Origin: Candidatus Zixiibacteriota bacterium | GTDB taxonomy: Bacteria; Zixibacteria; MSB-5A5; GN15; FEB-12 | NCBI GenBank assembly: GCA_024280215.1 | Contig: JAJRQO010000017.1 | Location: 1-64,000, forward strand | Length of the DNA stretch: 64,000 nt | Reading direction: 5' to 3' | The notes under the pieces: generated by a model | Databases searched by the model: none | Told to the model about the DNA's origin: nothing | The model's input: only the letters and a program-made list of their open reading frames with translations | In this document: one piece after another, positions 1 to 63,619 of the stretch | Position numbering within the stretch: the first letter of the stretch is position 1 | How the letters are laid out: each line of letters begins with the position of its first letter | Position numbers and translations under genes: made by a program

Positions 1-490
1 ATTCGTTTATAGCGGAAAAAGAGTGAAAAAAGCGCCTTAAAAAAACTTTTTATATAGGGAACGAACCCATTTTAAGACTGAAAGACAAGGATTCCTGCCT
101 TGCATCGTATTTGTACCGACAGGGCATTGCCCTGTCTAATTTACTGGATCCCGTGTCAAGGGACTGTTGAAAAACCTCTTATATTGGAACATACTTCGAC
201 TCCGCTCAGTATGACAAATTATAAGCTGCTGTCTTTCAAGTCACCCTGAGCGGAGTCGAAGGGTCTTGAAAGACTGTTTGGACTTTTTCAACAAGCCCTC
301 AAGCACGAGAAGGGGTTTATCGATTAATGAACGATAGTTGGAATCATTTTGTAGGTTGCTGTTTCAAGTAACTTGTTTACAAGTTGCAGAACCCGACATA
401 AAAAAAAGACAGGTCTCAAAATCGAGACCTGCCTAAAAAATTTATTGTCGAAACTACAGGAGTTTCGACCTACTAATTAGATAAATCTAT
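1..490. repeat. Gene-free stretch built of interspersed repeats
   Basis: No gene is visible. About bases 1-90 are, in reverse orientation, a truncated copy of the roughly 140-bp element also seen near 34.2 kb and 54.5 kb (shared AAATGG.TTC, CATATA and TTTTTTCACTC blocks). Bases 118-136 are the palindrome GACAGGGCATTGCCCTGTC. Bases 194-209 and 246-261 form a 16-bp inverted repeat (CTTCGACTCCGCTCAG and its complement). Bases 447-473 are a GTCGAAACT/AGTTTCGAC hairpin followed by CTAC. A terminator for the neighbouring gene lies at 400-437. Confidence 0.75.
400..437 (-). terminator. Rho-independent terminator of the first lipoprotein gene
   Basis: Perfect 8-bp stem CAGGTCTC (410-417) / GAGACCTG (424-431) with a 6-nt loop. 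Read on the minus strand it is followed by a run of T (the A-run at 400-408). It lies about 60 bp downstream of the stop of the lipoprotein gene. The A/T runs on both sides make it potentially bidirectional. Confidence 0.75.
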
Positions 491-33870: not shown

Positions 33871-34726
33871 AGTTTGCTAATATACGTAAATAATTCGGTT
33901 TGTGGAGCGGTTTTTTAGTATTGTGCTTTTGTAGGGTTCGGGCATGCCCGAACCGCCCAATTTGTACCGACAGGGCATTGCCCTGTCTTGAGGAACAGGC
34001 ATGCCAGTTCCCTACATTATAAAAACACACCTTTTACCGACTTTTAAAAGAGGGGAAACAATTATAAAAACATAAAAATCACTCTATTTGATGTCATTCC
34101 GTACCTACAAACCCCTTCCCCGACTTGATCGGGGATCCAGTATATTAGACAGGGCAATGCCCTGTCGGTACATTATTTGAAATGGGTTCAGTCGCATATA
34201 AAACATCTTTTTTCCTTATTTTTATTGTCCCTTTTTCATCATTAATAATTCCCCCGCAGGGGGTTATGGCGAAATGGCTTTGCCTTACAAAATGGCTTAA
34301 AGCCATTTTTGTTTATACTTATTGTAGACTTTTTGGACATGCTCTTTTCTCTCATATTTAATGTTCTTCCATTCTATATGGAAAATTAAGTAACTGCGTT
34401 TTATATGTAGTTAATTTGTTACTGTACTGGATTCCGCCTTTGGCGGAAAGGAGTTGTGGAGAATCGGTATCTCTTTTCAAAAAGTGAAAAAGATACTTTG
34501 TTAATAAAAATAATATCTCAATCTATGAATTATTTTCAATACTTCAAACTCTCCTCTCCGCTGAAAGCGGAGTCCAGAATATTTCAATATTCTGTGTACT
34601 AAATAATCATAAATTTTATCCTAATAAATCAAAATTGGCATAACTTGTTTCTGCACTGGATTCCGGCTAAAGCCGGAAAGGAGTAGTGGAGAATCGAGCC
34701 TCAACTCAAAAATTGAAAATGAGTTT
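33871..34726. repeat. Repeat-dense intergenic region
   Basis: No gene is visible in 856 bp. From 33931 (GTAGGG) to 34014 (CCCTAC) there is a composite element with three hairpins: GGTTCGGGCATGCCCGAACC (33935-33954), GACAGGGCATTGCCCTGTC (33969-33987) and GGAACAGGCATGCCAGTTCC (33992-34011). Next come a CCCCGA/TCGGGG hairpin (34118-34134), an inverted copy of the GACAGGGCA palindrome (34148-34166), a roughly 140-bp element (about 34189-34329), and two copies of a TGGATTCC-hairpin-GGAAAGGAGT element (about 34427-34480 and 34653-34720). Confidence 0.8.
34189..34329 (+). repeat. About 140-bp interspersed element, copy 1
   Basis: It begins AAATGGGTTCAGTCGCATATA, passes through GCGAAATGGCTTTGCCTTA, ends with the hairpin AAATGGCTTAAAGCCATTT and then an AT-rich stretch ending TTGTAG. 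The same order of blocks occurs at about 54487-54640 and, truncated and inverted, at the left end of the window. Confidence 0.8.
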
Positions 34727-34963: not shown

Positions 34964-34990
34964 GTCGAAACCGCAGGGGTTTCGACCTAC
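34964..34990. repeat. GTCGAAACC hairpin repeat, copy 2
   Basis: Arms GTCGAAACC (34964-34972) and GGTTTCGAC (34978-34986), followed by CTAC. It matches the hairpin at 447-473 except that the T-A pair at the top of the stem there is C-G here: both sides changed together. Confidence 0.8.
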
Positions 34991-54116: not shown

Positions 54117-54321
54117 GTTTCACTTATTGTTAATTCTTCTTTGTAGGGAACTGGTATGCCTGTTCCTAACATAACAAAGTAGGGCAGAACCCTTTAGCGG
54201 TTCTGTCTTTTTAATACCATTTCTTCTAATCCTGTCATTGCGAGTTGAAACTACAACAGCAGTCAAAACGTGGCAATCTTATCTTTTGATGCGGTGTCAG
54301 GAACCCATTCCTGACACTTTT

Positions 54322-54486
54322 AAAATAGCTTCAGTCTCACAGGCTAAGCCTGTTTTATTAATATCCAAGCTCTTTCAAAATGGCTTCAGTCCCACAGGCT
54401 AAGCCTGTTTTATTAATAACCAAGCTCTTTCAAAATGGCTTCAGTCCCACAGGCTAAGCCTGTTTTATTAATAACCAAGCTCTTTC
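54322..54486 (+). repeat. 3 x 55-bp tandem repeat
   Basis: Units start at 54322, 54377 and 54432 and are nearly identical. Each contains AAAATGGCTTCAGTCCCAC, the palindrome CAGGCTAAGCCTG and CCAAGCTCTTTC. The first 14 bases of the unit are also the first bases of the 140-bp element that follows at 54487, so the array looks like an extension of its left end. Confidence 0.88.
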
Positions 54487-54640
54487 AAAATGGCTTCAGT
54501 CCCATATAGAACATCTTTTTACCTCGTTTTTTCACTCCTCTATTTCACTATAAACAAATAGACGATATAGAAATACAGCGAAATGGCTTTCCCTTAAAAA
54601 ATGGCTTAAAGCCATTTTCTGCAATATTAATTGTAGCAAT
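54487..54640 (+). repeat. About 140-bp interspersed element, copy 2
   Basis: Same block order as the copy near 34189-34329: AAATGGCTTCAGTCCCATATA, ACATCTTTTT, GCGAAATGGCTTTCCCTTA, hairpin AAATGGCTTAAAGCCATTT, and TTGTAGCAATTTT. Confidence 0.8.
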
Positions 54641-54727
54641 TTTGTATCTCATCTTCTCTTGTTCCATCATACATGACGAAATTTATGAAAATCCATAGTT
54701 TTTATAAGGTTTTTGCACTACAATAAT

Positions 54728-54810: not shown

Positions 54811-55170
54811 ATGCAAGAAATTAGGTTTTACGAAGAAAAGGGTACGTCTCCAGTGCTTGACTGGATAATAAGTCTTACAGAAAAGGCTCAAATCAAGTGC
54901 TTAAGTAGAATTGAATTACTTAAAGAAAAAGGTAATAAATTACGTAGACCTTATGCGGACTTGTTAAGAGATAACATTTATGAACTAAGGATAATTTACT
55001 CAGGAAATCAGTATCGGATACTATATTTTTTTGATGGTACTGAAATTATAGTTCTTACTCACGGTTTTATAAAGAAAAGTAAAACTGTACCTACAAAAGA
55101 GTTGAACAAAGCAGTAAAACGAATGGAAAAATATTTAAAAGACCCTGATAAATATTCAAGTAATGAATAG
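54811..55170 (+). CDS. HigB/Gp49-like toxin of a type II toxin-antitoxin pair
   Basis: 119 residues of the phage-derived Gp49-like/HigB (RelE superfamily) group. MQEIRFYEEKGTSPVLDWI opening, RIELLKEKGNKLRRPYADLL, ELRIIYSGNQYRILYFF, and HGFIKKSKTVPTKEL with the late Lys/Thr/Pro segment. Related toxins are ribosome-dependent mRNases. The toxin gene precedes the antitoxin gene as in higBA; an HTH gene follows by 55 bp. Confidence 0.9.
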   Translation: MQEIRFYEEKGTSPVLDWIISLTEKAQIKCLSRIELLKEKGNKLRRPYADLLRDNIYELRIIYSGNQYRILYFFDGTEIIVLTHGFIKKSKTVPTKELNKAVKRMEKYLKDPDKYSSNE

Positions 55171-55225
55171 GGTTAAACGTTTTATATCTAAAAAAAATTG
55201 CTGAACAAAACAGGAGAATTGCCAA

Positions 55226-55606
55226 TTGTCTAACACACGCAAGGGACTAACGACGGATGCAATTGTGATCCTTAAAAATAGGATTACAAAGGGCAATCCA
55301 AAAAAACTTGAGAAGCTTGAAAAAGAACTTGAGCAAGAACGAATGGCTTTACAAATAGGGCAGGAAATTTATAATCTGCGAAAAAAAGCAAAACTTACAC
55401 AGCAAGAACTTGCTGACATGGTAGGAACAAAAAAATCAGCTATTAGCAGACTTGAGGATGCCGACTATGGCGGTCACTCTATCAATATGCTTTTAAAAAT
55501 AGCTGTAGCGGTTGGGATGAAATTAGAAATAAATTTTATAAAAAGCAAAAGTAAAGCAAAAACAGTTAAGAAGAAAGCAAGAACAATTGCCAGGGTAACG
55601 GCTTAA
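55226..55606 (+). CDS. HigA-like XRE-family antitoxin
   Basis: 126 residues. The HTH (LTQQELADMVGTKKSAISRL, about 69-88) lies in the middle after a helical N-terminus; the tail is basic. It neutralises the upstream toxin and represses the pair. The start is TTG at 55226, 7 nt from AGGAGAA; no ATG is better placed. A strong terminator follows. Confidence 0.88.
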   Translation: MSNTRKGLTTDAIVILKNRITKGNPKKLEKLEKELEQERMALQIGQEIYNLRKKAKLTQQELADMVGTKKSAISRLEDADYGGHSINMLLKIAVAVGMKLEINFIKSKSKAKTVKKKARTIARVTA

Positions 55607-56064
55607 AAAGTGAGTCTTTAAAATAAAAATATCAAGTTCCAAAAAAAGCAAATCTGATTCAGGTTTGCTTTTTTTAATGCCAATCACATTCACTACATCA
55701 TCAACGTAAATCAGAACTCTCCCCTGTTTGATATGGATAGCTGTAAATTTTGTCGGGTTTCTCTCTATTATATTTTGGTAGAATCGGAACGCCGACCTAC
55801 TATAATTGATTTACGAGAGAAAGAAGTGGTGAAAAAAATTTGCAATACCACAAAACAAAGCCAATTCTTTATAACGGTAAGTATGCGATAGTTTTGTATC
55901 GGAATTTTCAAATGTAACAATGTGGATAACTAATATTTTGTAAGAAAAAGAGAGATTGCCACGTCACTTCGTTCCTCGCAATGACTGCTGTAAATTAGGT
56001 TTTTGTAGGGAACTGGCATGCCTGTTCCTAAAAGAAAGGTTCGGGCATGCCCGAACCCTACATA
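55607..56064. repeat. Intergenic region with terminator and repeat modules
   Basis: No gene is visible. After the terminator at 55641-55675, a GATTGCCACGTCACTTCG copy lies at about 55953-55985. From 56005 to 56061 a composite GTAGGG...CCCTAC element holds two hairpins, GGAACTGGCATGCCTGTTCC (56009-56028) and GGTTCGGGCATGCCCGAACC (56038-56057). The rest is AT-rich. Confidence 0.75.
55641..55675. terminator. Terminator after the toxin-antitoxin pair
   Basis: 12-bp arms AAAAAAAGCAAA (55641-55652) and TTTGCTTTTTTT (55664-55675) with a further short inner stem; T-run at the end. Usable from both strands. Confidence 0.85.
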
Positions 56065-62306: not shown

Positions 62307-62401
62307 ATTGTCAATTTTAAAGATGAGATTGCCGCATCACTTCGTTCCGCGCAATGACAGGGCTGTATGACTTTCGGCAGACGAGGACGTCTGCCATGCA
62401 C
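62307..62401. repeat. About 95-bp direct repeat, left copy
   Basis: Runs from GATTGTCAATTTTAAAGATG through GATTGCC..ATCACTTCGTTCC and ends with the hairpin GGCAGACGAGGACGTCTGCC (CGTCTGCC second arm). A nearly identical copy lies at 63298-63392 in the same orientation. Confidence 0.88.
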
Positions 62402-63256: not shown

Positions 63257-63619
63257 AATTTAAAATCAACAAGTATATTATAGTCTTTTCTCTCTTGGTT
63301 GTCAATTTTAAAGATGAGATTGCCACGTCACTTCGTTCCTCGCAATGATAGGGCTGTATGACTTGCGGCAGACGAGGACGTCTGCCATGCACAGCACTGG
63401 CTTGTCTGTTCCGAGAGTAGACAGTTAAAAAAAGTCAGGTCTCGGAAAGACGGTATCTACGAAATTTTATTTTGAAAAATTTGTTGGGTTTCTTACAATT
63501 ATATTTTTTATAGAATCGGAACGCCAACCTACAACTGGATTCCCAATCAAGTTGGGAATGACATTGTGCCAATGTACCCTTCGACAAGCTCAGGGTAACG
63601 ATTTTGAACATAAAGATAT
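63257..63619. repeat. Intergenic region with second 95-bp repeat copy
   Basis: No gene is visible. The 95-bp direct repeat occupies 63298-63392. Related pieces follow: GGATTCCC..GGGAATGAC near 63537-63562 and a CCCTTCGAC..GCTCAGGG fragment near 63573-63598. Confidence 0.75.
63298..63392. repeat. About 95-bp direct repeat, right copy
   Basis: Right copy of the repeat at 62307-62401. The two are 991 bp apart and bracket the frameshifted lipoprotein gene. Confidence 0.88.

Follow-up and report, generated by a model that had tools for sequence, protein, structure and literature searches.

The hairpins found in this Candidatus Zixiibacteriota genome and the transposases that adjoin them very probably constitute a REP/REPIN-RAYT system. 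In the window (the whole 64,000-nucleotide stretch of contig JAJRQO010000017.1 that was analysed) and elsewhere in the genome, hairpins of what we call family A are, with the same high confidence, best explained as non-autonomous REPs, many of them joined head-to-head into REPINs/BIMEs, that RAYTs (TnpA-REP, single-strand transposases of the HUH type) mobilise in trans. The basic REP/RAYT biology has already been described for other bacteria, and these are elements of a known kind; here, several families coexist in an unusually rich mosaic, and the detail on its assembly is the partly new part of the present case.

In a family A REP, a GTAG foot precedes a hairpin with a stem of 8 bp and a loop of 4 nt. 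Stems are GGAACAGG, GGAACTGG, GGTTCGGG, GGTTCAGG or GGTTGAGG, and loops CATG or CTTG. Family A shows the features by which GTAG REPs and REPINs are recognised: a GTAG (or variant) foot immediately 5' of a short palindrome, a copy number in the tens to hundreds with chiefly extragenic copies, and an associated cognate RAYT gene. The GTAGGG hexamer alone occurs about as often in the window as chance would predict (9 matches versus 8.1 expected). Genome-wide, the pattern GTAGGGNNCNGGCATGCCNGNNCC yielded 66 + 64 matches when up to 3 mismatches were allowed; leaving a loop base open and allowing up to 2 mismatches yielded 97, and the reversed-pattern controls gave 0 in both cases. As some near-palindromes are counted on both strands, a fair figure is about 90-100 family A copies in the 3.03 Mb genome. 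Only 2 of the 62 family A clusters are genic (one being a weak match, the other the copy within a RAYT gene), and their clustering along the genome is weak, with 60 of 98 20-kb bins empty versus 53.7 (sd 3.0) and a mild excess near contig ends. Perfect hairpins were few in 400 kb of sampled stretches; with the window included (464 kb), 46 hairpins lie in 54 kb of intergenic DNA versus 9 in the rest. The nucleotide preceding the foot is T in 97% of cases, and each of the two positions before it is T in 78% (background 30%), so that the conserved part extends to a TTT before GTAG. Folding of seven elements as single-stranded DNA (the family J element left out) gave z = -3.2 to -5.5 relative to shuffles, and the only feature over the Rfam gathering score in the window is a tRNA.

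The GTAGGG-bounded elements reported in the initial annotation are real and lie where it placed them, save that the first ends at 34015 instead of 34014 (Table 1). They had been attributed to one element family; the hairpins belong to several. Thus, only the outer two of the three hairpins in the first element are family A REPs, the middle one belonging to family D, and while the module at 54143 is indeed family A, its neighbour is a family E REP. The two CCTAC hairpins, described there as simpler, form a separate family, B, with a different RAYT. The copy numbers of all families, A included, come from pattern searches of the genome and are not an unbiased census, as the patterns were taken from the window or from RAYT flanks and palindromic matches may count twice: family B (GTAGGTCGAAACC..) has 34 matches (0 in the reversed control), and there are 51 for family D (GTACCGACAGGGCATTGCCCTGTC; both strands of some palindromes included, or about 40-50 copies), 24 for family E, 33 for family F (GTAGAGGCGTTACATGTAACGCC; foot often at both ends) and 30 for family C, with 0 in each control.

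Table 1. REP hairpins and composite units in the window.
Feature	Position	Strand	Remarks
Composite REP trimer A(GGTTCGGG)-D-A(GGAACTGG), GTAG feet outward	33931-34015	.	Three more copies at unrelated sites, arranged and oriented alike
Family A REP, TTC class, loop CATG	33931-33954	+	Pattern search
Family D REP within the spacer, foot GTACC, stem GACAGGGC	33964-33987	-	Family D search
Family A REP, AAC class, loop CATG	33992-34015	-	Pattern search
Family A REPIN, head-to-head doublet with 9-nt spacer, 3 nt past lpxA stop codon	56005-56061	.	
Family A REP, AAC class	56005-56028	+	Pattern search
Family A REP, TTC class	56038-56061	-	Pattern search
Family A REP, single, loop TATG	54143-54166	+	Pattern search
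Family E REP (GTAGGGCAGAACC..), single	54179-54207	+	RAYTs of G002 (L040) and G014 (L046) have this stem in their flanks
Family B REP (GTAGGTCGAAAC..)	447-473	-	Family B flanks RAYT of L001
Family B REP	34964-34990	-	Family B search
Family D REP	113-136	-	Family D search
Family D REP	34148-34171	+	Family D search
Family J long REP (GTAGGTCGGCGTTCCG..GAAACCCGAC)	55752-55800	-	Matches RAYT flanks in L004, by eye
Family C REP, foot GTGCA, stem GGCAGACG	62376-62401	-	Family C flanks RAYT of L002
Family C REP	63367-63392	-	Family C search

The window contains other repeats besides. A dispersed repeat of about 160 bp (143-303) is 95-97% identical to copies in L095, L228, L234, L241 and L268; it adjoins a family D REP and looks like a larger MITE-like repeat. 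Copies of a second one, also about 160 bp, are found at 34180-34350 and 54484-54660 and in L106, L240 and L115; they are 77-80% identical and contain AAAATGGCTTAAAGCCATTTT hairpins. At 54317-54504, a 55-bp unit with the hairpin CACAGGCTAAGCCTGT is repeated three times in tandem, and 54811-55606 contains a RelE/HigB-like toxin gene (Gp49, PF05973) with an HTH antitoxin-like gene after it.

A search of the genome with the PF01797 (Y1_Tnp) profile retrieved five proteins, and a search with one of them added two, giving seven Y1 (HUH) transposases of the RAYT type. All six that were tested against NCBIfam receive the name "REP-associated tyrosine transposase", four of them over the cut-off and the two family A RAYTs below it (E ~1e-16 to 1e-17). 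Each of the seven adjoins its own hairpin family. The RAYT of L005/L065 (C40:91314-91817) has GTAGGGAACAGGCATGCCTGTTCC-7 nt-GGTTCGGGCATGCCCGAACCCTAC upstream and GGTTCAGGCATGCCTGAACCCTAC downstream; it is bordered by a GTAGGGAAC../..GAACCCTAC doublet, the same kind of unit as the REPIN at 56005-56061, and this RAYT, of subclass 2.4 / group 4, very probably serves family A. Its sister in L090 (C40:88163-88645), located 3 kb away and 49% identical, probably serves family A as well; it has a CTTG-loop family A REP upstream and another one in frame within the gene, read VGNRLACS. The RAYT of L119 (on C13) has a family F REP on either side and a further one in frame within the gene, read GVTCNAST. 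The remaining RAYTs pair with family B (L001), family C (L002), a CCCCTTGGGG hairpin (L003) and family J (L004, a match made by eye). Downstream of the RAYT of L002 (G000:C42) there are also about five direct repeats of GGACGTCTRCCTTGCACTTGTTAG. No RAYT was found beside family D or E in this genome; family E borders RAYTs in genomes G002 and G014. Placement of three RAYTs in group 4 / subclass 2.4 relies on near matches to the motifs NH[IFV]H, WQ and YIxNNP, not on a tree: they read NHIH, WQ and YMQNNP in L005, NHLH, WQ and YIRNNP in L090, and NHIH, WQ and YIQNNP in L119. A REP lies in frame between HUH and Y in L090 and L119, and none does in L005.

Same-genus genomes carry 48 (G002), 34 (G003) and 1 (G001, where the family is nearly absent) family A copies, those of G002 and G003 mostly with loop CCTG; such pairs as can be seen in the lists for these two genomes likewise look heterotypic, as described below for this genome. 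Collinear stretches of G002 and G003 share about 71-84% nucleotide identity with it. Directly after lpxA, where this genome has a family A REPIN, G001, G002 and G003 each have another sequence with other hairpins. Upstream of mtaB, about 40 nt by the start codon are conserved with G003, in which the element at 33931-34015 is missing. As both elements are absent at syntenic places, they are lineage-specific insertions or replacements. No target-site duplication was detected (mean 0.13 nt versus 0.15 in shuffled sequences), and complementary flanks prolonging the palindrome are not in excess over shuffled flanks. The initial annotation had proposed a non-autonomous mobile or structural element family instead of random palindromes, to be checked by copy counts, insertion sites and a search for a RAYT-type Y1 transposase; the copy number, the lineage-specific sites and the RAYTs adjoining the same hairpins all bear this out. 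The pairing of RAYTs and REPs is not strict, as no RAYT of the L005/L090 clade was found at E <= 1e-8 in G002 in spite of its ~48 family A copies, which may reflect RAYT loss, an assembly gap or service by another RAYT. The family A REPs of G002 may have outlived their RAYT.

Hairpins selected at gene ends as terminators or as mRNA stabilisers, and immobile, would account for part of this distribution: 51 of the 62 clusters are located between unidirectional or convergent genes, the element after lpxA starts almost at the stop codon, and REPs of other bacteria are likewise found near gene 3' ends (PMC3733652). We nevertheless consider this very unlikely, as the unpaired GTAG foot and the TTT are conserved while a T-run directly past the hairpin is not, the same sequence flanks the RAYT and is found in copies within a RAYT gene, and the hairpins at one and the same syntenic gene end differ from species to species. 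A secondary RNA role, in addition to mobility, is quite possible.

Comparison of the L005 RAYT with 84,980 species genomes identified 80 loci from many phyla, with 79 readable genes. A GTAG/GTGG-tagged hairpin is present within 400 nt of the gene in 39 of these 79 cases and inside the gene in 51, the embedded hairpins being nearly all located 9-51 residues past the HUH motif. The density of tagged hairpins per kb reaches 1.69 in the flanks and 1.89 inside the gene, versus 0.24 more than 500 nt away (7-8x). In 16 of the 25 loci having both, the embedded stem agrees with a flanking stem in 7 or more of 8 letters, compared to 3.7% for other loci. Such an association bears on the idea that the hairpins are structural or nucleoid sites maintained by the host (BIME-type gyrase or IHF binding) and that RAYT adjacency is incidental. 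BIMEs elsewhere do bind host proteins. However, neither the one-to-one matching of RAYTs and REPs for seven RAYTs nor the match between embedded and flanking stems in unrelated phyla would be expected if adjacency were incidental, which makes this explanation scarcely probable. REPs inside RAYT genes of subclass 2.4 (Bertels group 4) have already been published, and the present data extend this observation. A reading of REPs within the RAYT gene as new was rejected, the same location between HUH and Y being already described (PMC6006769).

The inverted doublet is the favoured unit of GTAG REPINs, and family A pairs within 80 nt are all head-to-head with feet outward (16/16), though the majority of copies consist of one hairpin with one foot and CTTG-loop REPs are nearly all single. 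That MITEs of a DDE transposon, with GTAGGG/CCCTAC as the terminal inverted repeats at which a double-strand transposase cuts, would produce such inverted ends and dispersed non-autonomous copies is hardly a credible alternative, given the missing target-site duplication, the majority of single one-foot hairpins and adjoining transposases that are Y1 HUH and not DDE. The close pairs of family A REPs are also heterotypic in all 16 cases, with one GGAAC-class and one GGTT-class hairpin (in one pair, the right-hand partner is degenerate in stem and foot), a rule that would avoid the long perfect palindrome formed by a homotypic head-to-head pair. Paired hairpins are separated by 7-9 nt in 11 of the 16 pairs and by 37-43 nt in the other five, which contain a third hairpin. 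This middle hairpin comes from a separate REP family with its own foot: family D in four of the five, at the same position and orientation relative to the ends and with unrelated flanks, and family E in one. Moreover, A-D doublets in which D starts 28-30 nt after A occur at ten places, and there are 18 A-D associations within 100 nt versus 2.4 expected under uniform placement in intergenic DNA. Family D also follows B and F-like REPs, after an AT-rich spacer of 4-5 nt. This supports mosaic assembly, although the simplest interpretation is that a small number of composite units were inherited from common ancestors. The earlier suggestion that cassettes were exchanged thus holds insofar as modules of more than one REP family are combined in set arrangements (A-D at ten places, A-D-A' at four), but the varying stems of family A itself follow a fixed two-class rule instead of free exchange. 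As a separate observation, two paralogous genes (L100 and L239, on G000:C18 and C40) are 88% identical up to a GTAG that supplies their TAG stop; homology stops there, and what follows is a family A REP in one and a family D REP in the other, as though an exchange had taken place at the foot.

Other RAYTs bind single-stranded REPs, depending more or less strongly on the GTAG foot, and cleave with a tyrosine at CT or CA beside the hairpin (PMC8266576); as this chemistry is established for them, we infer the same for the present RAYTs. When DNA becomes single-stranded, for example on the lagging-strand template, the REP hairpin would form, and the RAYT would bind its stem-loop and foot and cut beside the foot via covalent tyrosine chemistry. 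Joining of the cut strand elsewhere would copy or move whatever unit two outward feet enclose. For the family A system, cleavage, strand transfer and activity at the present day are thus presumed. Foot-delimited REPINs may, in addition, act as carriers: hairpins of other families (e.g., D, for which no RAYT was found in the genome) would travel within, or make up one half of, units mobilised by the RAYT of another family, and composites would be built from modules of separate transposase systems. We advance this only tentatively, as a possibility that we do not favour at present.

Several known systems resemble this one. Like the REPINs of Pseudomonas fluorescens SBW25 (Bertels & Rainey 2011, PMC3116915), the elements are inverted REP doublets with outward conserved ends, intergenic and RAYT-linked, a proposed replicative unit; unlike in SBW25, the two halves always belong to different stem classes, the spacer is only 7-9 nt, and other REP families are found inside it. 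RAYT group 4 / TnpA subclass 2.4 (Quentin et al. 2018, PMC6006769), which has long REPs and REPs inserted into the tnpA-REP gene, shares the motifs NH[IFV]H, WQ and Y..NNP, GC pairs at the stem base, double-foot REPs and the in-frame REP between HUH and Y; a point of difference is that the present genome has three such RAYTs and three REP (sub)families. With the GTAG-tagged REP superfamily (Di Nocera 2013, PMC3733652), the elements have in common the GTAG tail, a 6-13 bp stem with a short loop, the predominance of HH dimers, the location near gene 3' ends, and several families with repeat-specific RAYTs in one genome. We do not claim that stem and loop match any of the 24 families listed there, and the extended TTTGTAG foot and the mixed-family composites at fixed spacing set the present elements apart. 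E. coli BIMEs are also mosaics of alternating REP types, whereas the modules here come from separate RAYT systems and are not variants served by one RAYT. A limited literature search found no published REP description for the order of the host.

With its seven RAYTs and their distinct REPs, this 3 Mb genome provides a compact natural set on hairpin recognition by RAYTs; two of the seven are sisters whose REPs are distinguished mainly by the loop (CATG versus CTTG). The system is also suited to asking whether a REP doublet can carry foreign hairpins. This is the most interesting remaining point: if the carrier reading is true, foot-delimited doublets would be composite mobile elements.
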